The notes below the pieces were generated by a model, which saw nothing but the letters and a program-made list of their open reading frames with translations, was not told where the DNA came from and ran no database searches. From Halosimplex halophilum (GTDB lineage: Archaea; Halobacteriota; Halobacteria; Halobacteriales; Haloarculaceae): a stretch of 64,000 nucleotides of DNA. Location: the NCBI RefSeq assembly GCF_004698125.1, contig NZ_SRHV01000005.1, positions 558,001-622,000 on the forward strand, given 5' to 3'. Positions 34,650 through 52,299 of the stretch are shown here, piece after piece. Position 1 is the stretch's first letter, and every line of letters begins with the position of its first letter. Both the position numbers and the translations under genes were made by a program.

Positions 34650-34821
34650 GCCGAGATTTTGAGGCAAGACCCTGAAATGCCGCCTCTGCCAGCTTGAACC
34701 CGCCAATGTTAGTCAGAATACCGAGACCATATATAAGCAAAACAGCAGCTGCTAAAATCTTCATTCCTTTCGCATCAATATGCTCTTCTGGAGCCACCCC
34801 AGTCATGATAGAGTAGAACAT
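34639..34821 (-). CDS. Small single-span membrane protein
   Basis: A 60-residue protein with one hydrophobic helix (ILAAAVLLIYGLGILTNIGG) between polar ends. It overlaps the start of the 33768 gene by 11 bases and shares its AT-rich composition, so it is probably the first gene of that small operon. No family is recognised. Confidence 0.55.
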   Translation of the reverse strand: MFYSIMTGVAPEEHIDAKGMKILAAAVLLIYGLGILTNIGGFKLAEAAFQGLASKSRHEN

Positions 34822-34901: not shown

Positions 34902-35590
34902 TCAAGCTGCGGTCACGGACTCCTCAATCCATTCGTATCCGCCCGATCCATCGGGCTGTGCGGAGTAGTTCGGGAGCGGAGACGATGCGCTCGTGTCATA
35001 GACTGTCGCCTTCGTCTTCGCAGCGAACACGGCGTGACCGTTCCACTGTCCCGTTGTAGCAGGATTGCCGTCATTGACGCTCCAGCCGTTGACAACTGTC
35101 CGCGTTCCGTGCGTGACCGAGCTGTCGACGTAGTCGCTGAAAACGAAGTCATCGGCGAACGAAAGATCCAAGCCCGTGTTTGAGATGATCACGTTGTTTG
35201 CGATGCTGTCCTTCCCACGAAGTTGTACGTCTTCGGGAAGATCGCCGTCCGCGTTGGTTGACTCGCCGATGTAGACGTTGTTATAGATGACGTGGGCCTT
35301 GGAGGTATTCTCCCAGTCGAACGCACGTTGCCCTCCAGACGCGCTGTCGAGCATGACCCAGACGTTGTTGAGCATCGTCCGCTCGTGGTGGTCGAAGATG
35401 ATCCCCGTCTCGATGCCGTGTCCGAGTTCGTCGTGGATGATATTATTAGAAATGAGTGACTGGCGGACGTTGAGTCGCATCCCAGCTGTCTGGCTGCCCT
35501 TTATTTCTGTCCAGTCCCGATGTAGCACCGCTTGAGAAACGACGAGGTGCCGGTGTTGATCGCGTATTGGTCTGCACGATCAACGTTCAT
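34902..35590 (-). pseudogene. Right-handed beta-helix (pectate-lyase-like) protein remnant, frameshifted
   Basis: The longest frame (34902-35528, 208 codons) reads like the end of a parallel beta-helix domain (SLISNNIIHDELGHGIETG, TMLNNVWVMLD, NNVYIG, SIANNVIISNTG). Before about 35,510 the matching text moves to another frame: ATG 35590 gives NVDRADQYAINTGTSSFLK then KRCYIGTGQK and a stop. The two frames join within about 15 bases, so a single-base shift is likely. Stops before 35590 show that the N-terminal half is gone. It was probably a secreted surface or polysaccharide-binding protein. Confidence 0.6.
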
Positions 35591-35970: not shown

Positions 35971-36225
35971 GCTACGCTCTGTACTGAGCAGATTGGGAGG
36001 TGAAGTCTGGTATAATACCCTCTATAAGGGGAAATCCCAACGTCGATATCAAATTGTTAAGACATCTTATCGATACCCCTCAGGGATTTCTGCGGGAGAC
36101 ATTAGAACCATAGGACACCGAAGGATCCTCTGTCTCTGGGCCTGGCAGGAAATACGTACATTTCGATAAGCTGTGATCTATAGATCAATTGAACCGAAAT
36201 TAGAATCGCTATGACTGGACGCGTG

Positions 36226-37458
36226 TTATTGCGTTCGGATCGCCTCGTCGGACCGACCACGATCGGTCGCGTAGGTCACCGGCAGGTCGTACCGCTCGCC
36301 GTTGAGGAACAGGTCGCGGTAGTAGGTGTCGAGTTTCGAGGGGCCGTAGAAGGGATCGCCGCGACCCACGCCGACGGCGTGGACGGTCGCATCCCCGTAC
36401 GCCTCCAGCAGATCGAACCCGACCGGGACGAACTCGTAGGTCTCCTGGGAGAACCGCTTCCAGGGCTGGTCGTCGATCCCGCGGAACTCGTCGGTCACCG
36501 TCCGGGTGTGCCACGCCCCGGGCTCGCGGTCGGCGTACATCGTCCGGAAGACGAGCGTGAAGCCGTCGACGACCGACGGCTCCGGCTCGGGCGTCCCCGT
36601 CTCCGTGCCGTCGTTTGGGTCGTCGGTCGGCGTGTCCGTCGCCGTCTCCGTTTCTTCGGTCTCCCCGGTCTGCAGGAGGAGCCACGCCTCGTCCGGCCCG
36701 ACGCTCTCCATCTCGTGGTCGGTCCCGACGCCGGTCACGTCCTCGTCCGTCACGAGCCAGTCGTAGACGAACCCGCTATCCACTTGTTCGGTGTCTTCGT
36801 CGGCCTCGTCGTCGCTTTCGGTTCCGTCCGCCTCGTCGCCATTGTCTTCCTCATCGTCGCCCCTATCCTCGTTCTCGCTCCGCCCCTCGTCGCCGTCGGG
36901 TTCGTACTCGTAGATGTCCCGGACCGTGAGGTTTCGATTCCGGACATTCACCACGGAGATCCCGTAATCGAACGTCACGGCCTCGTCGTCGTTCTGTTCC
37001 CGGCTGTCGTCGCTGGTCTCTTCCTGTTCGTCTTCGTCTCCGCCGTCGTCTGTGTCCTCCGCTTTCGGGAGCGACGTGATCCGGACGACGCCGTCCTCTC
37101 TGTTTCCTCGACCCTGCCCTCTCTCGCCTCCTTGACCTTGTCCCCCTTCGCCTTCCCGGCTTTTTCCCCTCTCGCTTCCCTGACCTTGTCCGCTCTCGTC
37201 TCCCCGTCCTTGACCGTCGTCTTCGTCGTCGCCGTCCGATCCGGTCGGATCCTCGGACGTTTCGATACGGACGGTGTCGCTGAACCCGCGGAACTCGTTG
37301 TCTTCGCCGACGCCGATCGTCGCCGCTCGCCCGCCGTTCGCGAGGAGCACTCTCGCTCCGAACGCGGGCGTGACCTCACGCTGGACGTTCCACAGCACTC
37401 CGCCACCCACGAGCGCCGCACCCACTCCTCTCAGTACCGTTCGTCGTGTCGGTCGCAT
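36226..37458 (-). CDS. Tat-exported acidic surface protein with low-complexity segments
   Basis: A 410-residue protein with a twin-arginine-like N-terminus (RRTVLRGVGAALVGGG). The mature part begins with a beta domain (ARVLLANGGRAATIGVG, EDNEFRGFSDTVRIET), then a ~50-residue repeat of Gly-Gln-Gly and Glu-Arg-Gly units, a second beta segment (EAVTFDYGISVVNVRNRNLTV), a run of Asp/Glu, and a C-terminal domain (TLVFRTMYADREPG, DLLEAYGDATVHAVG). The layout resembles a cell-surface protein with flexible acidic linkers. No family is recognised. It follows the decayed genes and precedes a small membrane protein in the same direction. Confidence 0.7.
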   Translation of the reverse strand: MRPTRRTVLRGVGAALVGGGVLWNVQREVTPAFGARVLLANGGRAATIGVGEDNEFRGFSDTVRIETSEDPTGSDGDDEDDGQGRGDESGQGQGSERGKSREGEGGQGQGGERGQGRGNREDGVVRITSLPKAEDTDDGGDEDEQEETSDDSREQNDDEAVTFDYGISVVNVRNRNLTVRDIYEYEPDGDEGRSENEDRGDDEEDNGDEADGTESDDEADEDTEQVDSGFVYDWLVTDEDVTGVGTDHEMESVGPDEAWLLLQTGETEETETATDTPTDDPNDGTETGTPEPEPSVVDGFTLVFRTMYADREPGAWHTRTVTDEFRGIDDQPWKRFSQETYEFVPVGFDLLEAYGDATVHAVGVGRGDPFYGPSKLDTYYRDLFLNGERYDLPVTYATDRGRSDEAIRTQ

Positions 37459-37633
37459 GGTTCAGAGATACTGGATCGGAATCCATAATTATCAACTAGA
37501 TACCAGGTATGCGCGGCCGAGTAAGTTCGCAACAGTGATCGATAGGGTGGGACGTCACCGAGTAAGGAAAGGCAATGACCGCCGCGAGGTCCTTCGACTG
37601 CGGTTGAACGGTTCCGTTACTCGGACGGTCCGG

Positions 37634-37996
37634 TCACGCCCGGTCTTCGGTCGTCCGGATGTCTTCGGAGCCGGAGCGGCCGGACAGGATCGGGAGTCGG
37701 CTGGCGATCCAGTGTTTGTACCTGATACCCAGGATGTTGACGACCGTCGTGAAGTAGAGCGCGCTCAGGAAGTACCACGGTTTCCGCTCGATCTCCGTCG
37801 GGATTCCGCTGTTCGGAAGGAACCCGATATGGGAGGCGTTGCCAAACGCCGACAGCACCCCGAGAAACAGGAGCGCGTACGCGAGCAGCGGGTAATCACG
37901 GTACACGAGTCCGACGAACAGTCCCAGCAGGAGGCCCAGTTGCAGAGTGTGGATTTCCACGTAGGAGTTGAACAGTTGCGGCAGAATTTCCGGCAT
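37634..37996 (-). CDS. Small multispan membrane protein
   Basis: A 120-residue protein with about four hydrophobic segments (LQLGLLLGLFVGLVY, LLAYALLFLGVLSAFGN, WYFLSALYFTTVVNILG). ATG 37996 (MPEILPQLFNSYVEIH) is preferred; ATG 38050 would add 18 polar residues. No family is recognised. It is located among surface-glycan genes. Confidence 0.6.
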   Translation of the reverse strand: MPEILPQLFNSYVEIHTLQLGLLLGLFVGLVYRDYPLLAYALLFLGVLSAFGNASHIGFLPNSGIPTEIERKPWYFLSALYFTTVVNILGIRYKHWIASRLPILSGRSGSEDIRTTEDRA

Positions 37997-38050
37997 TCCT
38001 ATCGGCCCTCCACCTCGGTCGCGATCTCGTCCGAGGTCGTCCATCGGCAC

Positions 38051-38846
38051 GGTTCGACGCGCATACCATATCGAAACCAGTTGGTTCCCTTAACGTCCCG
38101 GTATACAGTATCAATTCTGAGAATATGCTCTAGAAAAACCTCAAAAAGCTGGACAAGGTGCTAGTAAGCCATTTTCCAAATAATCGTATCTAGTAGTGAT
38201 ATTTAGAAGGTGGAGGAAAGGAGAAGATCGGAGCGAGGATTGGTTCACTCGAATTGCTGTTCGGGTGGGTTGCGATGTCGAGCTGTCCGAACAGTTCGTA
38301 CAGTGCGCCCCGCGCTCGACAGTGGGGTTGCGCGATAGCACCACGGTTCGCGCGCGGCAGATCGGGGGCTCGTACGAACACCACATCGCCGGCGAGGCAG
38401 GACGAACCACGTCGCGCGCGATCGGGAACGCTTTCGAATCGACGTGTACGTACACGCCGTTTCGACCGAATAGTTCGGAATATCGAATCACCGCTATTAG
38501 CGCCGCTCGCTGGTGATCGTTTCCTTTCCGATTCCGTAGGTCCCCTCCCAATTGTTCCGGCTTCCAGTAAAGTTAAGTTAGCTTGTTTACACTCTAGAAA
38601 TGCATAGACGTAATCCGGTGCCGTGGAAGTATATCCGCTCGGCAATTCCGTGGGTGGTGTTGCCGAGCGGGGGTAGGTGGACGATGCGACCGACGACAGG
38701 CATACACAGCGGCCGTCCAAGTGCCGAACAGCGTTCTGGAGCGGCGCGTGTAGCTGAGATGGATGCCTGTTCCGCGGTCGGTATCGGATTCGAGCGGGGC
38801 GGCGGGCGGGTCCTGAGCGTTCGCGAAGCGGGGGTAGGTGATACTG
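38051..38846 (+). other. Intergenic stretch of about 0.8 kb without a convincing gene
   Basis: Open frames here have Arg/Ser-rich composition and no motif. An AT-rich run with agttaagttagc (about 38,570) may be the promoter of the GT2 gene at 38847 with a long leader, or of a lost gene. Confidence 0.45.
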
Positions 38847-40154
38847 ATGTCCGGTGAAACTATCGAGACCAGAGAGGAAGGGCAACGGGAACGGGCCGAC
38901 TCTGTCGCGGTGGGTGTGATCGCGACGGCGGACAACACCGACGGTGCGCTGCGGACGATCCATCGCGCGCTCGACCGGGGCCACGACGTATTCGTGTTAC
39001 AGCCCGGCGAAACGGAGTCCGAAACGGTCCGGTTCGCGAAACAGTTCGATGTTGAGATCGTCCGAGTGCAGGCCAGCGGCGACCTCCAGCGATACAAGGA
39101 GGAGCTGGCGATCGCTGCCTCGGTCAAGGATTACGACGCCGTCATCGTCCCGCCGCCCGAGTGTGAGCGGATCGTCTACGACGAGACGCTCGCTGCGATC
39201 ACCGAGAACTCGATTCAGGTCGACGCCGTCACCGAACGGGATGTCGAATTCTCCGGCGAGACTGTGGTCGGGATTCCGGCTTACAACGAGGCTGGTTCGA
39301 TTGGCGACGTTGTGCGGGAGGCGCGGGCGCATGCGGATTCGGTACTGGTCGTTGACGACGGGTCGGCCGACGATACGGCTGCGGAGGCTCGTTCGGCCGG
39401 TGCTGTAGTTATCGAACACGAACGGAACCAGGGCTACGGGCAGGCGTTGAAGACGCTGTTCGATGAGGCAGCAGATCGGGACGTTGGTTCACTCGTGGTG
39501 ATCGACGCTGACGGCCAGCATGATCCCTCGGACATTTCGCGACTGGCTGGTGAATTGGAGTCAGGTGATGCGGACCTGATTATCGGGAGCCGATTCGCTA
39601 GCAACGGGGATACGAACGCACCCGTGTATCGCCGGTTCGGTCTCTGGATCGTGAACACGCTGACAAACCTGAGTATGGGCGTCGTCCGCCCGCGGTCACG
39701 GGTTCAGGATACGCAGAGTGGGTTCCGAGCATACGACTCTGATCTACTGGAATCATTAGCTACAGACGGTGAGATTGGTGACCGAATGAGTGCAAGTACT
39801 GATATTCTATATCACGTCCATGAAAATCAATTTAAAATCAAAGAAGTTGGTACTACTATTGACTATGAAGTAGAAGATGCAAATTCACATAATCCTATTT
39901 CTCATGGACTGACACTGGTGAATAATATTCTAAAGACTGTTGAGCGTCAGCGGCCGATATCTACGTTAGGAGTTCCCGGGTTTGTGAGCACGGTTATTGG
40001 AATTAGCTTCGGATATTGGTGTTTCTCGAATTTCATTGCGAGTGGCTCATTCCCACTTGGATTGGCAATCATATCCGTGTTTTTCACGCTTACAGGTATC
40101 TTCTCTAGCTTTACCGGCATAATTCTGCACGCTCTCAATCAACATTTAAAATAG
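38847..40154 (+). CDS. GT2 (DPM1-like) glycosyltransferase with an extra N-terminal domain
   Basis: A 435-residue protein from ATG 38847 (MSGETIETREEG). Residues about 20-130 are an additional Rossmann-like domain (SVAVGVIATADNTDGALR, DYDAVIVPPPECERIV). The GT2 core follows, with GIPAYNEAGSIGDVV, LVVDDGSADDT, VIDADGQHDP and IIGSRF, and ends with two membrane helices. This is the form of polyprenol-phosphate sugar transferases. It would load a sugar on dolichol phosphate for protein glycosylation. The first 880 bases are GC-rich, the last ~420 AT-rich; the change near 39,730 suggests a recombination joint within the gene. Confidence 0.85.
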   Translation: MSGETIETREEGQRERADSVAVGVIATADNTDGALRTIHRALDRGHDVFVLQPGETESETVRFAKQFDVEIVRVQASGDLQRYKEELAIAASVKDYDAVIVPPPECERIVYDETLAAITENSIQVDAVTERDVEFSGETVVGIPAYNEAGSIGDVVREARAHADSVLVVDDGSADDTAAEARSAGAVVIEHERNQGYGQALKTLFDEAADRDVGSLVVIDADGQHDPSDISRLAGELESGDADLIIGSRFASNGDTNAPVYRRFGLWIVNTLTNLSMGVVRPRSRVQDTQSGFRAYDSDLLESLATDGEIGDRMSASTDILYHVHENQFKIKEVGTTIDYEVEDANSHNPISHGLTLVNNILKTVERQRPISTLGVPGFVSTVIGISFGYWCFSNFIASGSFPLGLAIISVFFTLTGIFSSFTGIILHALNQHLK

Positions 40155-40182
40155 AAGTGTTGAATCACCCTCATTAAAAATC

Positions 40183-40195
40183 GATATATTAAAAA
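40183..40195 (+). promoter_or_regulatory. Putative TATA box of the GT4 gene at 40272
   Basis: GATATATTAAAAA is the most TATA-like run in the 117-base gap, but it is about 80 bases from the ATG. The surrounding DNA is AT-rich, so the call is weak. Confidence 0.3.
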
Positions 40196-40271
40196 CAATC
40201 TCAAATAAGCTTCAAAATCGCCTAATCGGATGCTACTAACCAAACATGAACGCTAGATCACGGAGTCTTCA

Positions 40272-41417
40272 ATGAAGGTTGCTCTCCTCTCAATTATGTA
40301 CCCTCCCGACTCAGGAGGTGCTGAAACTTATGCATATGAATTGTCAAGAGCATTAGCTCAACGTGGACATCAAGTTGATGTCTATACTGCAACTACTGAG
40401 CGGCTTCCAAAAGATCTGGATCATCCGTCAGGTGTTACAGTAGAACGTCTATTTAAGCGAAGGAAGATACCAGTACTAGAAACTATCTATTATAGTCTTA
40501 GGGCGCGATCTGTAGTTGATTTCAGTGAATATGATATTATTCATGGAACAATGATGCCAGCCTCTACGATCGCCTTGACACCAGGTCTCGGAATGACCGA
40601 TGTACCAATAGTGTTGACCAGCCACGGCACATCGCTAGGTGAATTCCGTTCACACAACCCTGACTCATTTATTGACTATTTGCTGAAATATGGGCTGCAT
40701 CCTGGTAATTTCGTACTTGACAATATTGCGGCTCGAACTGTAGATAGTGTGATTGCTATAAGTGAACATGTGGAAAATGAACTATCAAATTACTATAATA
40801 TATCAGACAAAGCAACGATGATACCACATGGTGTTGATACTGAACGGTTTCAACCTAAAAACAAGATACACTCTGCAGTAGACCCTAAATTGTATAATAT
40901 ATTAACGGTTGGTCGTCTAGGACCACGAAAAGGAATTGGACTTGCAATTCGTGGCATTGCTGAACTTGACTCTCCTGATGTCCGTCTGCTTATCGGAGGA
41001 ACTGGCCGTCATGAGGATCGTTTACGTGAACTGGCACAGTCCCTAGGAATTAAAGAGCAGGTCAAATTCTTAGGGTATGTGCCAGATGACGAACTGCCGC
41101 TACTATATTCTTCGGTTGATGTATTTTCATTGACTTCTAGATATGAAGGACTAGGGCTTGTGCTATTAGAAGCGATGGCTTGTGGAACTCCGGTTGTTGC
41201 AACAGATGTTGGTGGTGTATCAACTGTGGTTAACGACGGAAACAATGGATATTTGATTTCACGTGACAGATCTGAATTTGCAAAGCGAATACTTGAATTA
41301 AAGAATCCAGAACACCTTAAGAAAATGTCTGATGAAGCAAAAAGATTCGGTCAGTCTTCTAGTTGGGCGGATGTAGCGAGACGAGTTGAGAATGTATATG
41401 ATGAATTGGTGTACTAG
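40272..41417 (+). CDS. GT4-family glycosyltransferase, AT-rich
   Basis: A 381-residue GT-B enzyme. The N-terminal domain begins MKVALLSIMYPPDSGGAETY with the Gly-Gly-Ala-Glu donor-pocket turn; the C-terminal part has LTVGRLGPRKGIGLAIRGI and the E-x7-E motif in YEGLGLVLLEAMACGTPVVATD. It is a soluble cytoplasmic enzyme that would add a sugar to a lipid-linked acceptor. It is the first complete gene in the AT-rich block and uses A/T-ending codons unlike most of the window. It is followed by a phosphatase-superfamily gene in the same direction. Confidence 0.9.
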   Translation: MKVALLSIMYPPDSGGAETYAYELSRALAQRGHQVDVYTATTERLPKDLDHPSGVTVERLFKRRKIPVLETIYYSLRARSVVDFSEYDIIHGTMMPASTIALTPGLGMTDVPIVLTSHGTSLGEFRSHNPDSFIDYLLKYGLHPGNFVLDNIAARTVDSVIAISEHVENELSNYYNISDKATMIPHGVDTERFQPKNKIHSAVDPKLYNILTVGRLGPRKGIGLAIRGIAELDSPDVRLLIGGTGRHEDRLRELAQSLGIKEQVKFLGYVPDDELPLLYSSVDVFSLTSRYEGLGLVLLEAMACGTPVVATDVGGVSTVVNDGNNGYLISRDRSEFAKRILELKNPEHLKKMSDEAKRFGQSSSWADVARRVENVYDELVY

Positions 41418-41461
41418 CTCACACCGAAGAAAATAGATAGCTGACCTGAATACACAGATAT

Positions 41462-42571
41462 ATGGATTTACTTGTCATCGGTTGGGATGGGGCAAGCTAC
41501 CGTCATTTAAAAGAGTTTGACCTCCCATTCTGGGATGGGCTTTCGCACAAGGATTATCTATATCCGGAAGGATTGTTCCACGACGCCTCATACATCAGTA
41601 GTGCTAATGCTTGGACAACGATGACCACTGGTGCTGGCTTTCGTCAGCACAAAATTCTGGGGTTTGTCTATGGTAAATATACTGGCCATCCTCTCATGAA
41701 GGGAGTCTCTCTGATGGCAAGGAATCAGGCGGTTCCTGATTTCTTCCGCCGGGTACTAGTGAGTGAAGGAATAGGGCGGCTCGCGACCGATACTGGTCGA
41801 GTAGATGCGGAGAAGTCTCACATCCAAAGTTCAGATATTCCATTCAAACGTATATGGGACCTGTTACCCGGAACAGCGCAAGTATTTGGCCTTCCTCTTA
41901 CTTATCCACCTTGGGAAATTAATGGATCGCTGATGTCAGGTATACCTGCACCGCGTCCTGAAGAAGCGACACAACCGCTTGTTTATCCCCCAGAATTAGA
42001 GGACGTGATCTACGATGGGTCTCACAACGGGTACTACGTCGATCTGCCGTCGCCAGTTAATGATTCGTCTGTTGATGAGTCAGAATATGCTGACGCACAT
42101 TTGCAAAAATCAGGATCTTTATCGGAGCGTTATAAGCATGTGTATAACTCATCTGAAGAAAATCCTACGTTCGGGTTCCTTATGCTGCGAAGCATTGACG
42201 ATGTCTTACACGCAACTGAGGACAAGATGATTATTGAAGATGTGTATGATCGAATTGATAAAATCTCAAGTGATCTGGTGAGTTCGATAGATCCTGATGA
42301 TGTCCTTATCCTATCAGACCACGGAATGGCACCTACTTCACCACTTCGTGTTGATAAAGATCTAAAAATGGATCACGATACTAGACAGGGCGTTTGGGGG
42401 GGAACTACTGATTTCGATCTATCCAATCAAATAGATGTAGGTCCGTCTATCTTGGATTACTTTGACGTTGATACTGAACTCCCACAGGAGCGGGACGAAT
42501 ACGAACTTGTGACGAATGAGCTTGATGATGAAGCAGTCCATCAACGGCTCGAAGACCTTGGCTATGCTTAG
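41462..42571 (+). CDS. Type I phosphodiesterase-like alkaline-phosphatase-superfamily protein
   Basis: A 369-residue protein beginning MDLLVIGWDGASYRHL, where Asp9 is a metal ligand. The probable Thr nucleophile lies in SSANAWTTMTTGAG, as in nucleotide pyrophosphatase/phosphodiesterase members, and LILSDHGMAP gives the second metal site. It ends in RLEDLGYA like three other superfamily proteins here. There is no signal peptide. It could transfer or cut phosphodiester-linked groups on a glycan precursor. AT-rich; it precedes a multispan membrane protein by nine bases. Confidence 0.82.
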   Translation: MDLLVIGWDGASYRHLKEFDLPFWDGLSHKDYLYPEGLFHDASYISSANAWTTMTTGAGFRQHKILGFVYGKYTGHPLMKGVSLMARNQAVPDFFRRVLVSEGIGRLATDTGRVDAEKSHIQSSDIPFKRIWDLLPGTAQVFGLPLTYPPWEINGSLMSGIPAPRPEEATQPLVYPPELEDVIYDGSHNGYYVDLPSPVNDSSVDESEYADAHLQKSGSLSERYKHVYNSSEENPTFGFLMLRSIDDVLHATEDKMIIEDVYDRIDKISSDLVSSIDPDDVLILSDHGMAPTSPLRVDKDLKMDHDTRQGVWGGTTDFDLSNQIDVGPSILDYFDVDTELPQERDEYELVTNELDDEAVHQRLEDLGYA

Positions 42572-42580
42572 TGTGGACGA

Positions 42581-44470
42581 ATGAAAACGGCCCGTTTGGC
42601 GCGCTACTTGCGAAGATCTGCTCCTTATCTTATTCTCTTAGCCGCTTTTGGAGCAACTGCACTCGTTCTTGTGTTAGAATTCTGGGCGTTTCTTGGTCCT
42701 GTCTTCGGGGCCCTATTGGGTGGGATACTTGGAGTGGGAAACCGGCTATTCGGTTCAGACTCTACTCCCTCTTATCAAGAACGGCCACTTGATTGGCGAG
42801 CTCCAACTATCATTATTTTGATATTCATATCACTCTCAATAGCAATATACCAACCTGTAAACGGCTATCGGCCCCTTTCACATTATATCCTATTTGGTGG
42901 AACGTCTGGATTTATTGGGTACCAAATATATATTGGCCAACCACGCCGACAGGTCCTAGCTCAACTTGTTGTGTTAACTTCAGTAACGTACTGGAGTACG
43001 CAGCTCACATATCCTGCGGGTGCATATGCACCAGATACTGTATCTTTTATTCCGGCGACAAAAGCTATCCTTGAAAATAATGCCGTCCCAACTCCTTCGC
43101 TGTATGAGAGCACTCCTACACATATGATATATGTCGCTATAACTTCTGAACTAAGCGGACTTTCAACTGATCATCTATATTTGTCTCTCTCTACATGTGC
43201 TCTCATCTGTTCCGTGGCTCTAGTTGGTTATATTGATCGAGTCATCAAGTCGATCGATAAAAGGACTGCACTCTTTGCGGCCCTATTTTTCGGGATAATG
43301 GGATTCACACTTCGGCGTGGACTTTACCCCAATAAAATGAACTTCTTTAAACCACTCATTGTTATTGTTATCATCTCCTTTTTTGCTTTATCGTATTCAA
43401 ACCGGGATTCACGCCGTTACGTACTACTTGGCATATTAAGCGTAATTGGCTTAGTATTTGGCCATACCTACAGTACAGGAGCAGCTATTATGGTAATTAC
43501 AGTTATCTGGGCCTTTAGCAGGTTTTCTCATTTAGGCAAGAACCTTGACTATTCTTCCCCAACCCGAATTCGATCAACGACTGCATTTGTGTTCTTTACT
43601 ATTGTCGTGTTTTTAGGGTACTCACTCGTTGATAAAGGGAGTCTCATAAACCGACTCGCTAGTCTTATTCTTTCGACGCTTGCTGCTACTGGCCAATTTT
43701 CCGGTTCCGCGTCAACTGGAACTTCTGGTGGAAGGTACTCTACGCTTTCATTATCCCTTCTGTTGTTTTCCACAGCCGGTCAGATGATACTGTTTACTCT
43801 AAGCGTCACCGGGGTTAGTACTGCCTTTGATTACAGAGAGTGGTCGTATGATGCTATCAACACGTGGATCGCCACTGGAATGTCCATAATTGGATTCAGC
43901 GTCTTTGTAAACGCTGTGGACATTCCAACTCCCAGAATATATTCTCTTCTGGGTATGTTCGGTCTAAATATCGTCATGGTTATCGGGATTCTAATTCTTG
44001 TCAAAGTCTGGTCTAAATCATATCGACCAACAATTTGTGCCATCATCATCGCTGTCTTCGCAATACTTTCTCTAGCCTCTCCAGTGGCTGGAATCGCATT
44101 GTCAAGCATAGGTGATGAAGTTCCACATATTCGAACATATGAAACATCTCCCAACCTTGAAAGTAAAGAGTGGTCAAATCAATATCTCCAAGACGACTTT
44201 TTAACATCCCAAGATCCCGATACAGATATTCCTTTGAGGGAACTCTCAGCAACCTCGGCAACGATAGATCAGTCACGAATTCAGAGAGGCCAAGTCTATA
44301 TTTTCACGGATTTAGCGACAGAAAATGGGGTGATTCTAGAAAGCGGTTCTGCGGGCTTAGGTGGCCGGAGATACGTTTTTCTTACAATAGCACCGAGTAA
44401 CTGTAGACATAGCATTATATATTCAAATTATGAGACATTCATATACAGTTCGATAGGCTCTTGTCAATAG
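42581..44470 (+). CDS. Multispan membrane protein, GT-C or polymerase-like
   Basis: A 629-residue protein with about 13 membrane helices and a ~120-residue polar C-terminus. A loop after the first helices (YPAGAYAPDTVSFIPATKAI) has an Asp and the layout of GT-C enzymes. It could be a glycan polymerase (Wzy-like) or a glycosyltransferase that uses dolichol-linked donors outside the membrane. No precise family is recognised. It is AT-rich and is nine bases downstream of the phosphodiesterase-like gene, so the two are probably co-transcribed. Confidence 0.65.
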   Translation: MKTARLARYLRRSAPYLILLAAFGATALVLVLEFWAFLGPVFGALLGGILGVGNRLFGSDSTPSYQERPLDWRAPTIIILIFISLSIAIYQPVNGYRPLSHYILFGGTSGFIGYQIYIGQPRRQVLAQLVVLTSVTYWSTQLTYPAGAYAPDTVSFIPATKAILENNAVPTPSLYESTPTHMIYVAITSELSGLSTDHLYLSLSTCALICSVALVGYIDRVIKSIDKRTALFAALFFGIMGFTLRRGLYPNKMNFFKPLIVIVIISFFALSYSNRDSRRYVLLGILSVIGLVFGHTYSTGAAIMVITVIWAFSRFSHLGKNLDYSSPTRIRSTTAFVFFTIVVFLGYSLVDKGSLINRLASLILSTLAATGQFSGSASTGTSGGRYSTLSLSLLLFSTAGQMILFTLSVTGVSTAFDYREWSYDAINTWIATGMSIIGFSVFVNAVDIPTPRIYSLLGMFGLNIVMVIGILILVKVWSKSYRPTICAIIIAVFAILSLASPVAGIALSSIGDEVPHIRTYETSPNLESKEWSNQYLQDDFLTSQDPDTDIPLRELSATSATIDQSRIQRGQVYIFTDLATENGVILESGSAGLGGRRYVFLTIAPSNCRHSIIYSNYETFIYSSIGSCQ

Positions 44471-44502
44471 TTATGTCGGACCCAATCAAACATGGAACCA
44501 AA

Positions 44503-45561
44503 TCATTGGATCTCATCAATTAATGATTTAAACTCCTCGTGAAAGATCTTTGTCCGAACATCCGGGGAAAATGACATTGCATACTCACGACATTCCTTCG
44601 CAATATTTTCTCTCTCAGCCACTGTTCGATCAAAATATTGAACAATACCACTGGCAATTGATTCTGGGTTTGGATCTACTACGAGGGCTGGTTCAATTCC
44701 TTTGAGCTCTGAGCTAGCGCCCGTTGTCTCTGTTACTAATGGAGGTACACCTGCCACCATGGATTCAATAACAGAGACACCAAAGACCTCTAATCGCGAA
44801 GGCTGTACGTACAGACCGATTGATTCAAACACCGTATCTAAGTCTTCAACGTATCCTTTAACTCTGACCCCCTCCGTATTCTCGTGCTTGGCTTGATGGC
44901 CTTTCCCTACTATTTCCAGTTTTAAGTCTGGAAAATGATTACGTACATCTGGCCAAGAATCGACGAGCATGTCGATGCCTTTGTAATCCCCTACGTTTCC
45001 CCTATTTGCACTTGCGATCACTGCCACTTTTTTTGACTCTAGATCTGTCGACAATGTGGACAAAGATTTGAAAACATCCCTTTGAACATAGGGTTTGGCT
45101 GTTCTCACGGTAGATGGTGATCCAAATAGTTGCTGCAGGAATGTTGCTGAATCCGCTGAAACAGCTATTGCGCCATCAATAAAGTGTTGGCAAAGGAATT
45201 GTAATATTTTGGACCTGGTCCGTAAGTACCTAGTATCCGTTTGCGCTTGGTTTGGGAACCCCCCCAAAGAAAGTTCACGGAGACGATGATCTCCTCCCAA
45301 ATATATTAAATTCGAATCAGAAAAGATAGTTGCTGCAATACCTGAGTACAATGGACGTGACCCTTCTGTAATATATATGTCGTAATCTGGCAAAGAGAAT
45401 CCGTTGAAAAACTCATTAAGTGGTGAATCTATTTTGGACCCATCTGATCGTGGATTGCAGCAAATAAAATCAGCTCCTATGGCGTCAGCAAATCCAGTGT
45501 GCGCTGGATGTGGTTGCTCACCATAATATAGCATCGCAATATTTTTATCTTGAAGACTCAT
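44503..45561 (-). CDS. GT4-family glycosyltransferase (minus strand)
   Basis: A 352-residue GT-B-type enzyme. The donor half is clear: KVAVIASANRGNVGDYKGID, LEIVGKGHQAKH and the E-x7-E region VQPSRLEVFGVSVIESMVAG. The acceptor half is short (about 150 residues). It is convergent with the membrane-protein gene and is separated from it by 32 bases. AT-rich codons match the other genes of the block. Confidence 0.85.
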   Translation of the reverse strand: MSLQDKNIAMLYYGEQPHPAHTGFADAIGADFICCNPRSDGSKIDSPLNEFFNGFSLPDYDIYITEGSRPLYSGIAATIFSDSNLIYLGGDHRLRELSLGGFPNQAQTDTRYLRTRSKILQFLCQHFIDGAIAVSADSATFLQQLFGSPSTVRTAKPYVQRDVFKSLSTLSTDLESKKVAVIASANRGNVGDYKGIDMLVDSWPDVRNHFPDLKLEIVGKGHQAKHENTEGVRVKGYVEDLDTVFESIGLYVQPSRLEVFGVSVIESMVAGVPPLVTETTGASSELKGIEPALVVDPNPESIASGIVQYFDRTVAERENIAKECREYAMSFSPDVRTKIFHEEFKSLIDEIQ

Positions 45562-45694
45562 GTCAGGTGTGTTTTCTCCCCCAATTAATAATACAATTAC
45601 AATTCATGTATTCCGAACTGAGGGAGTACTGCTAAATTAGGGCGATCCCTTCTAATTACGTGCAATGAATTTACATTCGGGCCCATCAGGGTTG

Positions 45695-47026
45695 TCATTT
45701 ATAGCCAAGCGCTTCTAATCTGTCTTCGATCTCACCTGACGTTTCCACATTGGGGCCTGTGCCTTCCGAGCTTTCTGGATGTCTACTACTGAAGGACTTA
45801 AGATATTTCAAGAGTTCTCTGGAACGCTCTGACTCTTCGGGACTAAGTGGCGTTACCTCCCTTGGATCTGTTTCTAAGTCGTAGACAGCAGTATTGAGTA
45901 TCTTACCGTCTTCTTTCATCTCAATAAATACTTTCCATCTTTTTCCGTGAACAGCAAACCGTCGAACGCCTTCGTCCTCATCTTCTCCGGTTGCACTCGC
46001 GAAGACGTGGTCCTCCCGGTCCGGGATCTCGTACCCTTTCTCTCGGGCGGTTACCAGCGGCGTCCCGGCAACACCATCGAGGTCACCGCCTACTTGTTCG
46101 AGGATCGTCGGTACAGCATCCAGTGTGCTTACTGGGGTATCCACCTCCATTGCGGAGTTGCCGGGCGGACTCACGAACAGCGGAACATGCAGTAGCGTGT
46201 CGTGAAGGTAGCGCGGATGTGTGTAATAGCCGTGCTCGCCGAACGCGTCGCCGTGGTCCGCCGTGACGATGACCAGCGCGTCCTCCAGCCGGCCGCGTCG
46301 CTCGAGTTCGTCGAAGAACGATTCGAGCTTCCCGTCCAGATACCGGATCTCGTCGTCGTAGCTGTCGCGCAACAGTCGCTGCTCCTCGTCGGTGATCGAC
46401 TCGGGCTTCTTCCAGGACCGTCGATACAGCGACTCGGCCTCGCTCGCCGTCAGTTCCCGCTCGGCGTAGTGGCGATCGGGCGCGTGATACGGGCCGTGGG
46501 GGTCCATGTAGTGGTTCCAGAGGAAGACGGGCCCGTCCGTATCGTCCAGCCAGTCGAGCGACCGCTCGTTGATCTCGGGGGCCCGAGCGTAGTATTGGCC
46601 GCCGCGGTTCAACACGAACCGGTCGAGCGCCTGCTGTGCGAGCGCGATGAGCTTGTTCTGGCCGAACACGAGGTCGTCGTAGAACTCGTCGAACCCGGCG
46701 TCGAACCCGTAGGCCCGCGAGAGATACGGATTGGAGTGGAACCCACCCGTGGTGTACCCCTCCGCCCGGAGGCGACCTGCCAGCGTCTCCTCTTCGGGTA
46801 CCTGTACGAACCCGTTCGCCGCGAACTCGGACGGTCGCTCCCCGGACAGCAGCGGCGGCATCGCCTCCCGAGTGTGAGAGCTCACGGAGAAGGCGTTCGA
46901 GAACGAGACGGTCCGGTCGACGAGCGAGTCGAAGAACGGCGTCTCTCGGTGGTGGCCGTAACACGAGAGATGGTCGGCCCGTAACGCGTCGATCGTGAAC
47001 AGGAATATATCTGGCCTGTCAGACAT
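45695..47026 (-). CDS. Sulfatase-like alkaline-phosphatase-superfamily protein, GC-chimeric
   Basis: A 443-residue protein starting at ATG 47026 (MSDRPDIFLFTIDALRADHL). Metal aspartates are in TIDALRADHLSCYG and VTADHGDAFGEHG; HYMDPHGPYHAP gives further ligands. The nucleophile position reads SSHTREAMPPLLSG, with Thr in place of the formylglycine Cys. The C-terminal tail is RLEALGYK. Upstream of about 45,990 (the protein's C-terminal ~100 residues) the DNA is AT-rich, the rest is GC-rich, so the gene joins two sources. It may act on a glycan-linked phosphate or sulfate. Confidence 0.85.
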   Translation of the reverse strand: MSDRPDIFLFTIDALRADHLSCYGHHRETPFFDSLVDRTVSFSNAFSVSSHTREAMPPLLSGERPSEFAANGFVQVPEEETLAGRLRAEGYTTGGFHSNPYLSRAYGFDAGFDEFYDDLVFGQNKLIALAQQALDRFVLNRGGQYYARAPEINERSLDWLDDTDGPVFLWNHYMDPHGPYHAPDRHYAERELTASEAESLYRRSWKKPESITDEEQRLLRDSYDDEIRYLDGKLESFFDELERRGRLEDALVIVTADHGDAFGEHGYYTHPRYLHDTLLHVPLFVSPPGNSAMEVDTPVSTLDAVPTILEQVGGDLDGVAGTPLVTAREKGYEIPDREDHVFASATGEDEDEGVRRFAVHGKRWKVFIEMKEDGKILNTAVYDLETDPREVTPLSPEESERSRELLKYLKSFSSRHPESSEGTGPNVETSGEIEDRLEALGYK

Positions 47027-47129
47027 TCTGCTTGGGTTACCGTTCCACACGAGACTGTATAAAGACTCCTTCTTCCACACTTCTTCCGCAAATGCTAATC
47101 CTCATACGAAGGCGGACAGATCATCGCGT

Positions 47130-48248
47130 GTGAACGTCGCCTATCTCACGCCCGTCGTCTACCCGTTCGTGAAGGGCGGTGTGGAAAAGCGGATCCACGA
47201 GGTGGGGACGCGGCTCGCTGACCGCGGCCACGATATCACCGTCTACTCGCGACACTGGTGGGACGGTCCGGAGACGATGACCCACGAGGGGATGACGCTC
47301 CGGGCGATCGGCCCCGCTGGTGAGATTTACGCCGACGGCGACCGCCGGTCGATCCCGAGCGCGCTCGGACTCGCTGCCCGTTCGCTACCCGCCGTGCTCC
47401 GCAACGACCACGACCTCCTCGTGACGCCGGTCGCACCGTACTTCCACGTCTCGACATTGTGGCTTGGGACGCTCCTCAGGAGGACGCCGCTGGTCGTGAC
47501 GTGGCACGAGGTGTGGGGCGACTACTGGCTCGATTACATGGGACAGCTCGGCCGAGTGGGTGACCTCGTCGAGCGAGTGACGGCGAAAGTCCCTTGCCAT
47601 CCCGTAACGCCGTCAGAGATGACTGCCGAACGACTGACACGGATCGGCCCCTCGCGAGACGAGATCGATGTCATCCCGAACGGGATCGATACGGCGTCGA
47701 TCCGGGACGGTCCACCGGCGACGGACGGGTACGACGTGCTCTACGCCGGGCGACTCATCGAGGACAAGAACGTCGACATGCTCCTCGACGCGTTCGGCCG
47801 GGCGGACCCCGACGCGACGCTGGGGATTATCGGCGACGGCCCGATGCGCGAATCGCTGGAGGCACACGTGGCCGGACTCGACTGTGCCGACCGCGTCACG
47901 TTTCTCGGATTCCTCGACGAATACGAAGACGTACTCGCCCACATGCGGGCCGCGCCGCTGTTCGTCTCGCCGTCGTTCAGGGAAGGGTTCGGGATCACCC
48001 TGCTCGAAGCGATGGCGGCCGACTGCACGGTTATCACGGTGGACCACCACTTCAGCGCGGCGAGCGAGGTCGTCGGCGATGCGGGCTTCGTCACCGACCC
48101 GACCGTCGAGGGGATCGTCGATGCGCTCGACCGTGCGCTCGACGGTGAGCGCCCGCCCCGGGACCCGGTCGAAGCGGCGCGAGCGTACGACTGGGAGAAC
48201 GTCGCCGACCGGACGGAGTCCTGCTATTCCCGGATCGTCAACCCCTGA
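47130..48248 (+). CDS. GT4-family glycosyltransferase
   Basis: A 372-residue GT-B enzyme starting at GTG 47130 (MNVAYLTPVVYPFVKGGVEK). It has the KGGVEKRIHE turn of the acceptor domain, LYAGRLIEDKNVDMLLDAF in the donor domain and the E-x7-E motif in FREGFGITLLEAMAADC. It is divergent from the sulfatase-like gene with about 100 bases between. GC-rich composition places it outside the AT-rich block. It probably adds a sugar to a surface glycan. Confidence 0.9.
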   Translation: MNVAYLTPVVYPFVKGGVEKRIHEVGTRLADRGHDITVYSRHWWDGPETMTHEGMTLRAIGPAGEIYADGDRRSIPSALGLAARSLPAVLRNDHDLLVTPVAPYFHVSTLWLGTLLRRTPLVVTWHEVWGDYWLDYMGQLGRVGDLVERVTAKVPCHPVTPSEMTAERLTRIGPSRDEIDVIPNGIDTASIRDGPPATDGYDVLYAGRLIEDKNVDMLLDAFGRADPDATLGIIGDGPMRESLEAHVAGLDCADRVTFLGFLDEYEDVLAHMRAAPLFVSPSFREGFGITLLEAMAADCTVITVDHHFSAASEVVGDAGFVTDPTVEGIVDALDRALDGERPPRDPVEAARAYDWENVADRTESCYSRIVNP

Positions 48249-48338
48249 CCGTCCCAGCTATCTCGCCGGGGGTGGTCTTCGGTTCTTATTTAGGAACTCC
48301 TCCCGTCCCGTGAAACACACGCAGAAGGTCGATATCGC

Positions 48339-48617
48339 ATGAGCCTTACCGGTCGCCGACGCTTCGTGCAGGGCAATCTCGTCTGGCTGCTCGCCACAGC
48401 CCTGGTGCTCGTGCTCCTCGACGCGCTCACTCTCGAACTGTTCTTCGTCGTCGCGCTGATCGGCTTTTTCATCACGCTCGAACTCGCCACACCCGCCACG
48501 GTCACGCCGCAGTGGCGCCGGCGACTCCGCTGGATCGTCGCCGTCGGCCTGATCGTCTTCGGGTACATCGTCGTCAGACGCATCCTTGCCATCCTGCCGG
48601 CGGGTGTCCTCCCATGA
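48339..48617 (+). CDS. Small two- to three-span membrane protein
   Basis: A 92-residue protein with helices at about 14-32, 33-50 and 66-85 (LVWLLATALVLVLLDALTL, FFVVALIGFFITLEL, WIVAVGLIVFGYIVV). The TGA overlaps the next ATG (ATGA at 48614). A TTATTTAGG run about 45 bases before the ATG may hold the TATA box. It is the first gene of the DUF4350-moxR operon. Confidence 0.75.
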   Translation: MSLTGRRRFVQGNLVWLLATALVLVLLDALTLELFFVVALIGFFITLELATPATVTPQWRRRLRWIVAVGLIVFGYIVVRRILAILPAGVLP

Positions 48618-49708
48618 CGCCGCCGTGGCGCGAGGTCTCGTACCCGCGGGCGCTCGTCGTCGCCCTCGCGACAGTGCTCGCTATCACGCTCCTCTACGGC
48701 GGGCTCACGTCGACTGCGGCCTTCGGCGCGTACAACTCGGCGTGGGACGGCGCGAGCGAACTCCGGGACCTCGCCGACCGACAGGACAGTGAGACCGTCC
48801 TCCTGCAGAACACTACGACCTACGCCGACCACCCACCCAACCAGTCCATCGCGATCGTCCTCTCGCCTGACGCCGAGTACACCCCCAGAGAAGCGGACCG
48901 CGTCGAGGCGTTCGTCCGCGAGGGCGGGACACTGATCGTCGCAGAGGACTTCGATCCGGAGCCGGACGCGCTCCTGGAGGCCATCGGCGCCGAGGTGCGG
49001 TTCAACGGCAGTCTCCTCCGGGACGAACGCAACCACGACACCGCGCCGACGTTCCCCGTCGCCGACGCCCGCACCGACCACCCCTACACCGCGGGCGTCG
49101 ATCGACTCACCCTCAATCGCGGGACCCCGGTCGAACCCGGCAACGCGACCGTCCTCGCGACCACCAGTAACTACAGCTATCTGGACACGAACCTCGACGG
49201 CGACCTGGACGACACGGAGACCATGCAGCGGTATCCGGTCGCCGCCGTCGAGTCGGTCGGCGCGGGCGACGTAGTCGCCGTCGGCGACCCGAGCATCTTC
49301 ATCAACGCGATGCTCGACCGGCAGGGCAACCGGGCGTTCGCGCGGACGCTCCTCGGTTCCCATGATACCGCGCTGGTCGACGTGTCCCACCTCGATGCGC
49401 TCCCCCCGCTCGTCCGCGCGCAGTTCGCGCTCAGGGGCGCGCCGCTGCTCCAGATCACGGTCGGCCTCGCGCTCGTGCTCGTCGTCACGTACCTGAGCGA
49501 AGCCGGGGCGCTCGCCGCGAGGGCCCGACACCGATTCGCCCCGGGTGAGCCCGACCCGGCACTCGACGCGCCGGTCGGCCCCGGGGCGGACCGCGAGGCG
49601 GCCGCGGCGTGGGTCCGGGAGCGCCACCCCGACTGGGACGCCGAGCGCGTCCGGCGGGTAACGGACAGGGTTATGGCCCGCTCGTCGAAAGGGCAAGACG
49701 ATGACTGA
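48614..49708 (+). CDS. DUF4350-domain membrane protein
   Basis: A 364-residue protein: an N-terminal helix (LVVALATVLAITLLYGG), an extracytoplasmic DUF4350 domain (SIAIVLSPDAEYTPREADRV, FVREGGTLIVAEDF, AGDVVAVGDPSIFINAMLD) with an alpha/beta GATase-like fold, a second helix (LLQITVGLALVLVVTYLSEAG) and a cytoplasmic tail. Proteins of this kind occur beside moxR and DUF58 in many prokaryotes. Its stop overlaps the moxR start by eight bases. Confidence 0.82.
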   Translation: MTPPWREVSYPRALVVALATVLAITLLYGGLTSTAAFGAYNSAWDGASELRDLADRQDSETVLLQNTTTYADHPPNQSIAIVLSPDAEYTPREADRVEAFVREGGTLIVAEDFDPEPDALLEAIGAEVRFNGSLLRDERNHDTAPTFPVADARTDHPYTAGVDRLTLNRGTPVEPGNATVLATTSNYSYLDTNLDGDLDDTETMQRYPVAAVESVGAGDVVAVGDPSIFINAMLDRQGNRAFARTLLGSHDTALVDVSHLDALPPLVRAQFALRGAPLLQITVGLALVLVVTYLSEAGALAARARHRFAPGEPDPALDAPVGPGADREAAAAWVRERHPDWDAERVRRVTDRVMARSSKGQDDD

Positions 49709-50705
49709 CCCCTCGGAGCTGTACGCCGCCCTGGAGGAGGAGATCGGGACCGTCCTGATCGGCCTCGAAGACCAGGTCGGCCTGCTGACCATCGCGGCGC
49801 TGACCCGCGGGCACGTCCTCCTCGAAGGGGTGCCGGGCGTCGCGAAGACCTCGCTCGCCAACGTCTTCGCGCAGGCGACGGGCCTTGAGTACAACCGCGT
49901 CCAGATGACGCCGGACATCCTCCCCGCGGACATCACGGGCACGAAGGTCTACCGCGAGGAGACCGGCCGCTTCGAGGTCCAGCGCGGCCCCGTCTTCTCG
50001 AACGTCGTCGTCGCCGACGAGATCAACCGCGCGACGCCGAAGACCCAGTCCGCCCTCCTCGAAGCGATGGAGGAGAACCGCGTCACCATCGAGGGCGACA
50101 CCCACGACCTGCCGGACCCGTTCATGGTCATCGCGACGCAGAACCCCATCGAGATGGAGGGCATCTTCGAGCTCCCGGAGGCCCAGCGCGACCGCTTCCA
50201 GCTGAAGGTGTCCGTCGACCTCCCCTCGAAGGACGACGAGCTCGCGCTCATCGAGCGGTTCCACGACGACCCGACGCTGGCCCCCGAGGACGTCGAGCAG
50301 GTCGTCACCCGCGACCAGTTCCGCGCAGCCCGCGAGGCCGTCGCGAACGTCCACATCGACGACAGCATCGAGGAGTACATCGTCGATGTCGTCGAGCGGA
50401 CCCGCGACCACCGCGACGTGGAACACGGCGCCTCGCCGCGGGCGACGCTGGCCTTCCTCAACACCGCGAAGGCCCGCGCGGCCATCTTCGGCCGCGACTA
50501 CGTCATCCCCGACGACGTGAAGGCCATGGCCGAGCCGGTGCTCGTCCACCGGCTCATCCTGAGCACCGAGGCGGAACTCGGCGACGCCGACCGCGCGGCG
50601 GTCGTCACCGACGTGCTCGACTCCGTGGTCCCGCCCGGCGGCGGCGAAGACGCACAGGTGCCGGGAGCGGAGACACCCGACGCGGAGAGCGCAGAACAGG
50701 ACTGA
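49701..50705 (+). CDS. moxR: MoxR-family AAA+ ATPase
   Basis: A 334-residue AAA+ protein. Walker A is GVPGVAKTS, Walker B VVADEINRATPKTQ, followed by SALLEAMEE and sensor 1 ATQNPIEMEG. The C-terminal lid domain is complete. MoxR ATPases act as chaperones with DUF58 (vWA-like) proteins, and a DUF58 protein is encoded 1.6 kb away on the other strand. The role is likely assembly or quality control of an envelope or redox complex. Confidence 0.93.
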   Translation: MTDPSELYAALEEEIGTVLIGLEDQVGLLTIAALTRGHVLLEGVPGVAKTSLANVFAQATGLEYNRVQMTPDILPADITGTKVYREETGRFEVQRGPVFSNVVVADEINRATPKTQSALLEAMEENRVTIEGDTHDLPDPFMVIATQNPIEMEGIFELPEAQRDRFQLKVSVDLPSKDDELALIERFHDDPTLAPEDVEQVVTRDQFRAAREAVANVHIDDSIEEYIVDVVERTRDHRDVEHGASPRATLAFLNTAKARAAIFGRDYVIPDDVKAMAEPVLVHRLILSTEAELGDADRAAVVTDVLDSVVPPGGGEDAQVPGAETPDAESAEQD

Positions 50706-50756
50706 ACGGGAGAACGAAACAGGGTCTGCTTCCCGCGTCCCGGGCGCCGACAGTAC

Positions 50757-51716
50757 CTACTCGCTTGACTCGTCTGCGTCCCACCGGTAGGTCAGCAGGT
50801 AGCTGTCCCGGCCCTCGGTGGGGTCGGCGTCGAGCCGGACCGGCCGTTCGAGGCGGCGGGCCAGCGCGACGGCGTACAGCGAGGCGACGGGCGCGTCGAA
50901 CCCGTCGGCCGGACCGTAGACCGTCTCGCCGACGCCGACGGTCAGGCGGCCGCGCTCGCCCGCGTCGGCCCGCGCGTGGTCGACGAGTTCGAACTGCTCG
51001 ACGAGCGCGTCGCCGACCTGTTCGACCAGCGCGGCGGGGCGGTCGGCGGGCTCGCCGGGCAGCGACTCCCGGAACGACTCGTAGAGCGGCGCCCCCGTCG
51101 GCGTGAACGCCGCGCCGCGGCCGCCCTCCGCGTCGGGGACGACCAGCGAGTCGGCGAGCGCGTCGTCGCCGGGCACGGCGTAGTCCTCGTACTGCGGGAC
51201 GAACAGCCGCACCCGGCTCTCGCTCTCGCCGACGGGGACGTAGACCCGCTCGTCGGCCAGCCCGAGTTCGGCGACCAGTTCGACCCGGTCGCCGGCCAGC
51301 GTCTCGTAGACGCTCCGGGTCACGTCTGCGGCGACGAACCGCTCGGGCGTCAGGTAGTACGTAAGCAGGCCGCCGAACAGCCCGATCGCGCCCAGCACCA
51401 GCAACACGTCCCGCAGACTCGGGAGGAGGCCGGCGCCGGCGACGCCCACGAGTCCGAGCGCGGCAAGCCCGAGTGCCGTCCGGCGGTACTGGGCCGTCCG
51501 CGCCCGCTCGTAGGTCGCCCGCAGCCGCTGGTTGCGCTCCCGGAGCCGTTCGAGCTCGACGACGAGGTCGTCGCGCGACCGCTCGTCCGCGTCGGGAGAC
51601 CCGTCGGCGCCGGCCGTGTTCGTCTCGACCCCGATCGCGGCCTCCTCAGATCCGGGTGCGGCCGCGTCGCTCGCCGGCGCCTCGCTCCCGTCGCCGACGG
51701 CGTCGTCACGACTCAT
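50757..51716 (-). CDS. Coiled-coil membrane protein of the moxR cluster
   Basis: A 319-residue protein from ATG 51716 (MSRDDAVGDG). The first 55 residues are acidic and disordered, residues about 50-75 form a coiled coil (VVELERLRERNQRLRATYER), two helices follow (LGLAALGLVGVAGAG, VLLVLGAIGLFGGLL), and the rest is a soluble alpha/beta domain (VELVAELGLADERVYVPVGE, YDVG-like text absent). It overlaps the end of the upstream gene by 11 bases, so it belongs to the minus-strand DUF58 operon. No function is known. Confidence 0.72.
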   Translation of the reverse strand: MSRDDAVGDGSEAPASDAAAPGSEEAAIGVETNTAGADGSPDADERSRDDLVVELERLRERNQRLRATYERARTAQYRRTALGLAALGLVGVAGAGLLPSLRDVLLVLGAIGLFGGLLTYYLTPERFVAADVTRSVYETLAGDRVELVAELGLADERVYVPVGESESRVRLFVPQYEDYAVPGDDALADSLVVPDAEGGRGAAFTPTGAPLYESFRESLPGEPADRPAALVEQVGDALVEQFELVDHARADAGERGRLTVGVGETVYGPADGFDAPVASLYAVALARRLERPVRLDADPTEGRDSYLLTYRWDADESSE

Positions 51717-52299
51717 CTGGATCACCGAACTCGGAGAGGGCGATTAAATCCAGGGATACGAACCCGGCGGCGCTCGCCAGCAGGACGGCGAGGACGGCCA
51801 CCCACAGGCTGCCGGCGAGCGCGTAGGTCCCGGCCGCGAGCGCCCCGACCAGCGCCAGCGCGACGACTACCGCGAAGGCGTCGCGCACCCGATGCGCGGT
51901 GACGGTCGTCGTCACCAGCAGGCCGGCCAGCGCGACCACCGGGACGGCCGTCGTCGTCAGCGGCGTCTCCGCGGGGACGAGCGCCACCACGGCTATCTGT
52001 CCGGCCGCGAACACGGCGACGTTGGGCAGCACGACCCAGGCGAGCGCGAGCAGGACCGTCGCGGCCACGCCGGGGACGCCCGCGACCAGCCAGAGCCACC
52101 CGCCCACGACCGCGAAGACGAGTAGGTCGATCCCCGAGCGCCAGCGGTCGTCGGCCCACCCCGAACTCTGTCCGTCCCGCTCGTCCGGCCCCCGGCCATC
52201 GGTCGCCGGCCGTTCCCCACCGTCGGTCGCCGGCCGTCCCTCGTCGTCCGTCGCCGCGGACGAGCGGCCGCTCGCCGACCCGGACGGCGTCGTGCTCAT
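51706..52299 (-). CDS. Small multispan membrane protein of the moxR cluster
   Basis: A 197-residue protein with an acidic Gly/Asp-rich N-terminal 50 residues and about five helices (LLVFAVVGGWLWLVAGVPG, VLLALAWVVLPNVAVFAAG, VPVVALAGLLVTTTV). ATG 52299 overlaps the stop of the DUF58 gene (ATGA), so the two are co-translated. No function is known; it may anchor the DUF58 partner. Confidence 0.75.
   Translation of the reverse strand: MSTTPSGSASGRSSAATDDEGRPATDGGERPATDGRGPDERDGQSSGWADDRWRSGIDLLVFAVVGGWLWLVAGVPGVAATVLLALAWVVLPNVAVFAAGQIAVVALVPAETPLTTTAVPVVALAGLLVTTTVTAHRVRDAFAVVVALALVGALAAGTYALAGSLWVAVLAVLLASAAGFVSLDLIALSEFGDPDES

Follow-up and report, generated by a model that had tools for sequence, protein, structure and literature searches.

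A surface-glycan cassette of Halosimplex halophilum probably replaced through homologous recombination in its two edge genes

How does a block of AT-rich glycan genes come to have both of its edges inside coding genes? The question is raised by a 64,000-nucleotide stretch of Halosimplex halophilum DNA (G000:C3:558,001-622,000; genome 4.47 Mb), here called the window, in which such a block begins inside a GT2 glycosyltransferase gene and ends inside a sulfatase-like gene. A preliminary description had proposed that a surface-glycan block was replaced here by homologous recombination in conserved flanking genes. We consider it probable that a surface-glycan cassette was replaced by homologous recombination in the two edge genes, that both are chimeric, and that the closest named relative of the host, Halosimplex pelagicum R2 (G003, NZ_CP058909.1), exchanged its cassette separately. 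Comparisons also included H. carlsbadense 2-9-1 (G007) and a third Halosimplex species (G005). Scans for relatives and donors covered 392 genomes of the order plus haloarchaeal plasmids, and the genome-wide background of GC content at third codon positions (GC3) was taken from a 400-kb sample of the host genome with 203 open reading frames (ORFs) of at least 250 amino acids.

The position of the edges was determined using unsupervised binary segmentation of positions 36,000-50,000, blind to genes. GC breaks were found at 36,231 (weak; likelihood ratio, LR, 15), 39,731 (LR 143), and 45,987 (LR 173). The latter two were the only strong breaks in 14 kb, both fell within intact ORFs, and both lie a few bases from the edges given in the preliminary description (near 39,730 and 45,990). 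GC content was 0.616 to the left of the block, 0.430 within it, and 0.667 to the right. Local fits gave ranges within two log-likelihood units of 39,701-39,755 for the left step and 45,942-45,998 for the right one. The composition shift sits at third codon positions in both edge genes, which are the GT2 gene (38,838-40,154, forward strand) and the sulfatase-like gene (45,695-47,080, reverse strand). Four complete genes lie between them with GC3 values of 0.29-0.41, in agreement with the complete AT-rich genes described earlier. A comparable C-terminal drop in GC3 (LR of at least 30) was present in one of the 203 sampled host ORFs, in a scan limited to C-terminal drops, where the reading frame is certain; whole-gene GC3 changepoints over the same ORFs looked unremarkable because wrong upstream starts make false N-terminal steps. 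The sole sampled ORF with a stronger C-terminal drop (0.90 to 0.32) was G000:C1:57,527-58,882 (L187:7,527-8,882), whose C-terminus is of low complexity and rich in Ser/Thr/Asn.

The left edge gene changes in composition and in relatedness at almost the same codon. Codons 1-298 of GT2 (38,838-39,731), which encode the N-terminal and GT2 catalytic domains, have a GC3 of 0.72 and are 83.5% identical in nucleotides to H. pelagicum. Codons 299-438 (39,732-40,154), which encode C-terminal hydrophobic segments, have a GC3 of 0.34 and 70% nucleotide identity. The GC3 step falls at codon 297 (0.68 for codons 276-300, 0.20 for codons 301-325), and nucleotide identity to H. pelagicum drops from 83% to 70% at codon 301 (39,738), four codons away; none of 300 shuffles reached either step. 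The left junction (39,701-39,755, best position 39,731) is located at the conserved motif RVQDTQSGFRAY. At codons for the same amino acid in the two species, third-position identity fell from ~0.7 to ~0.4 past codon 300. Three-way site patterns with H. pelagicum and G005 showed that, at codon 300, differences unique to the window increased from ~0.2 per codon to 0.4-0.5, whereas those unique to H. pelagicum were near level across the gene (1 of 413 circular shifts as extreme). The N-part of the window gene was 85% identical to H. pelagicum, 76% to G005, and 45% to G260, a genome of another family, whereas the C-part was 76%, 80%, and 74% identical, respectively. The C-part is the more conserved half in most pairs, as in H. 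pelagicum vs. G005 (N 76%, C 85%, the pattern of most of the family); the window vs. H. pelagicum comparison shows the opposite. The edge GT2 is of the polyprenyl-phosphate glycosyltransferase type. An identity as AglJ (TIGR04182) was rejected, as the gene scored 116.8 bits against a curated cut-off of 325.

The GC3 step was absent from 41 of 43 GT2 orthologues and present only in the window and H. pelagicum. A gradual composition change shared by every orthologue, which the preliminary description had named as a refuting outcome, was therefore rejected. The orthologues without a step include L137, L149, L141, and G005, in which the downstream kilobase is 36-49% GC. The step was larger in the window (0.40) than in H. 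pelagicum (0.25). Its GC3 range covers codons 286-303 in the window and lies wholly apart from that of H. pelagicum (codons 308-337), which suggests separate events; the steps of both species may also be one old event followed by change. Motif RVQDTQSGFRAY ends at window codon 298 and ranks fourth among 12-codon windows for nucleotide conservation. The H. pelagicum step adjoins the most conserved 12-codon window, MSASTDILYHVH.

The right edge gene encodes a predicted sulfatase (PF00884, 147.6 bits, gathering cut-off 25). Its 5' part (45,987-47,080) holds the PF00884 domain and is 90% identical in protein to H. pelagicum over codons 23-368, and its AT-rich 3' part (45,695-45,986) is 40% identical over codons 371-445. 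GC3 was 0.86 for codons 1-284, 0.63 for codons 285-370, and 0.40 for codons 371-461. The right junction spans 45,928-45,998: the GC step has its global best position at 45,987 and its local best at 45,959, the nucleotide-difference step relative to H. pelagicum falls at codon 370 (45,973), and the amino acid-difference step at codon 385 (45,928), so that protein identity falls from 90% to 40% around codons 370-385. Relative to G290, of another family, the window protein was 61% identical in the N-part and 39% in the C-part (codons 371-445). A control pair of sulfatases that was 91% identical in the N-part still retained 78% in the C-part. Identical residues in the C-part numbered 30 of 75 for the window pair vs. 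47 of 60 for the control (Fisher p = 1e-5). N- and C-part distances are thus strongly discordant in both edge genes, which supports the earlier proposal of chimeric edge proteins. GC and codon plots placed the steps inside both genes, and the two compositional joins agree with the identity drops to H. pelagicum within ~10-20 codons.

Several observations weigh against replacement by recombination. The fall in sulfatase GC is two-stage and not a single step, and codons 285-370 have low GC3 yet are ~80% identical to H. pelagicum, save for a variable patch at codons 326-350. The sulfatase data leave the older state assignable to the window or to H. pelagicum. Gene trees of the edge-gene parts, which the preliminary description had put forward as a check, were the weakest of its checks: N- and C-part distances strongly disagree and the GT2 N-part tree joins the window to H. 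pelagicum (support 100/97), but the GT2 C-part tree was unresolved, with the three Halosimplex sequences in one clade (99/90) and the window plus H. pelagicum pairing at p-AU (approximately unbiased test) 0.36. Since this pairing was not rejected, the GT2 topology alone is no proof of recombination; it is distances, site patterns, and composition, and not topology, that show the conflict between N- and C-parts. Nor was a donor found, with interior genes at best ~50% identical across the order genomes, and the block was on no haloarchaeal plasmid, where only distant GT2 matches were found, in Haladaptatus. The GT2 C-part, an interior GT4, the 629-amino acid protein of the block, and the sulfatase C-part were each searched for across the order and the family and gave no close donor, and no identical or close copy of the cassette was found in another lineage among these genomes and plasmids. 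The named-genome scan turned up H. pelagicum and H. carlsbadense and no donor.

The two-stage sulfatase drop and the GT2 C-part topology, which is not significantly different, would fit a cassette assembled gene by gene through transposition or illegitimate joining. On this view, mutation with a local AT bias, together with relaxed and faster evolution that spread from the adjoining AT-rich DNA, would have made the ends of the edge genes AT-rich. The C-parts of both edge genes are in fact faster-diverging as well as AT-rich. However, the GT2 step is only a few codons wide, orthologues with equally AT-rich downstream DNA show no step, the greater conservation that the GT2 C-part shows in most pairs is reversed in the comparison of the window with H. 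pelagicum, and the edges are without repeats. We consider such stepwise assembly unlikely.

The same locus was compared among relatives. Matches to H. pelagicum DNA (blastn) covered the GT2 region on the left (38,504-40,147, 79% nucleotide identity) and 45,929-50,643 and onward on the right (85%), and none was found between 40,147 and 45,929. The H. pelagicum locus itself has exactly two GC breaks by segmentation, at 16,119 and 26,314 of L052+L053, which fall at approximately codon 310 of GT2 and codon 366 of the sulfatase gene, the same two genes as in the window. Its AT-rich interior of 10.2 kb codes for two GT4s, a flippase, a large membrane protein other than that of the window, and an ORF with no assigned family. 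In G005, GT2 and the DUF4350-MoxR operon enclose a third gene set. GT2 on the left and this operon on the right are therefore the common position in the three species, and no gene pair between their interiors exceeds ~28% identity, although genes for GT4s and large membrane proteins, as well as AlkP/sulfatase-type genes, occur in all three. The strain comparison suggested earlier, run here between species, thus showed that the glycan genes in this position, and with them the cassette, differ from species to species. The same GT2 type adjoins the MoxR/DUF58 operon in G130 and G371 (other genera of the family) and in G004. In G130 and G371, and also in G260 and G307 from other families, it stands at the edge of an AT-rich region that carries glycan genes. 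In G006 (G006:C1:1,155,000-1,204,999; L207-L209), a glycan cluster has DUF4350/MoxR genes on both sides in opposite orientation, one operon copy full and one partial.

The flanks are shared with H. pelagicum as well. On the left, 36,229-38,124 matches at 76-77% in nucleotides (tblastn 64%) and includes a 410-amino acid acidic protein (36,226-37,458, reverse) and a small membrane protein ORF (37,634-38,050, reverse). On the right, a GT4 glycosyltransferase (47,112-48,248, forward) is 92% identical, followed by the anchor operon (48,512-56,096), which consists of the DUF4350 protein, the MoxR ATPase, the 50,757 ORF, the DUF58 protein, and the 53,850 ORF and is found next to this locus in three genomes of Halosimplex. 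This arrangement bears on whether the joins could be an artefact, in which assembly or contamination joined foreign contigs inside two Halosimplex genes. Contamination of the assembly is reported at 3.7%. Nevertheless, the reading frames of both genes run uninterrupted through the joins and can be aligned over their full length to H. pelagicum (81% each), and the complete H. pelagicum chromosome is arranged alike, with steps of the same kind. An assembly chimera was rejected on these grounds and is extremely improbable.

The cassette comprises a GT4 glycosyltransferase (40,272-41,417, forward, GC3 0.29, at most 28% identical to locus genes of H. pelagicum or G005), a type I phosphodiesterase/AlkP-superfamily protein (41,462-42,571, forward, GC3 0.41), a 629-amino acid multi-spanning membrane protein (42,581-44,470, forward), and a GT4-like glycosyltransferase (44,503-45,561, reverse, GC3 0.35). 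The membrane protein had no match in Pfam, NCBIfam, or PDB. Relatives occur in nine other genomes of the 392, eight at 32-38% identity and the ninth at 25%, and mostly adjoin a GT4; the protein is perhaps a GT-C transferase or a polymerase. Homologues of the cassette genes form one module with homologues of the sulfatase and of the 47,112 GT4, often also with a Wzx flippase, in H. carlsbadense, in G002, and in several further haloarchaea. In several of these genomes (G306, G335, and G007; loci L236, L240, and L213 among those examined), the sulfatase-GT4 core is GC-rich and the distal genes are increasingly AT-rich. Because the sulfatase-GT4 pair belongs to the glycan module elsewhere, the right edge gene is a module member, and what was exchanged is part of a glycan locus and not a whole locus between housekeeping genes. 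The earlier proposal of glycan-block replacement in conserved flanking genes is supported with this amendment.

The module also bears on the direction of change. The window could have kept an older cassette together with its edge-gene ends, the exchange having occurred only in H. pelagicum. Both H. pelagicum edge genes have GC steps of their own, and H. carlsbadense, like other haloarchaea, also carries the window module (GT4, phosphodiesterase, membrane protein, sulfatase, GT4), there too next to the sulfatase-GT4 pair. Yet past GT2 codon 300 it is the window, and not H. pelagicum, that is the odd one out against G005, and the window has the stronger GT2 step. In addition, the module is rearranged in the window (40,272-48,248): compared with L213 (G007) and L211 (G002), from two other Halosimplex, the cassette is inverted relative to the sulfatase-GT4 pair and the order of the phosphodiesterase and 629-amino acid genes is swapped. 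An exchange confined to H. pelagicum is very unlikely.

Another AT-rich patch lies beyond the block at 32,235-34,706 and contains a Wzx-type flippase and an AlkP-like gene (GC3 0.49 and 0.47). Homologues of this pair sit within the H. carlsbadense glycan module, which implies that the glycan gene set in the window is split by 34.9-38.8 kb. What may be a decayed gene lies at 34,902-35,528, a fragment that is similar to a right-handed beta-helix protein and matched no family.

The boundaries carried no sign of mobile elements. No direct repeats of at least 18 nucleotides occurred within 38.0-48.5 kb, no integrase, transposase, or tRNA was present at the block boundaries, and the nearest tRNA was at 59.9 kb in the window. 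Insertion by an integrase or at a tRNA was rejected for lack of boundary repeats and a boundary tRNA. From the absence of both, the homology on both sides, and the joins inside homologous genes, we infer double homologous recombination. An AT-rich relative carrying the same two edge genes would have donated the cassette, with the left crossover near GT2 codon 298 and the right crossover near sulfatase codons 364-385. GT2 would have kept its own N-terminal and catalytic domains and received a foreign C-terminal membrane part, the sulfatase would have kept its own catalytic domain and received a foreign C-terminal tail, and both genes would have stayed open. The surface glycan would have changed as a result. 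The H. pelagicum locus would have been exchanged independently, with a different cassette and joins at nearly the same places.

In bacterial O-antigen and capsule loci, central variable AT-rich glycan genes are swapped via conserved flanks. The Halosimplex case differs in being archaeal and in having glycan genes at its edges, which become chimeric. Replacement flexible genomic islands swapped by homologous recombination, including fGI1 of Haloquadratum walsbyi, were described by Lopez-Perez et al. 2014 (PMC4033161). Like these islands, the Halosimplex locus occupies the same place in each lineage, holds surface genes of unrelated content and equivalent function between conserved flanks, shows divergence, mostly synonymous, climbing at the boundary, and has edges without a mobile-element signature. 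Unlike them (within-species, with divergence peaks flanking the island), it is a between-species case with edge genes at ~80% protein identity, each of its joins falls within a coding gene of the locus and is marked by an abrupt shift in GC, and the search for an identical cassette in another lineage found none. A further haloarchaeal surface-biosynthesis island is likewise diversified by homologous recombination, but has other gene content and involves mobile elements and viruses, none of which were seen in the Halosimplex block. Haloferax agl and alternative N-glycosylation clusters also differ among close relatives, and within-gene recombination has been found in their aglJ, aglD, and aglB genes (PMC5867893); in contrast, no aglB-type gene was recognised in the Halosimplex block and its GT2 is far under the AglJ cut-off. 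For the exchanges in Haloquadratum fGI1 (PMC4033161, PMC4535781) and the Haloferax glycosylation loci (PMC5867893), virus escape or altered cell-cell recognition has been suggested as the benefit.

This locus provides an archaeal, between-species example in which both joins of a surface cassette are placed to tens of bases inside coding genes, with a sister species that also has its joins in this pair of genes but encloses another cassette. A tentative possibility is that GT2 and the sulfatase are permanent ports through which Halosimplex exchanges glycan cassettes, with recurrent crossovers beside conserved catalytic motifs, so that the catalytic halves would be kept by the host while the membrane and C-terminal halves would move together with the cassette and remain suited to its glycan. 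The case opens a test of whether crossovers take place at conserved motifs of edge enzymes and whether the chimeric enzymes and the imported glycan genes are matched to each other. It would be an unusually clear instance of a known route of microbial surface change.

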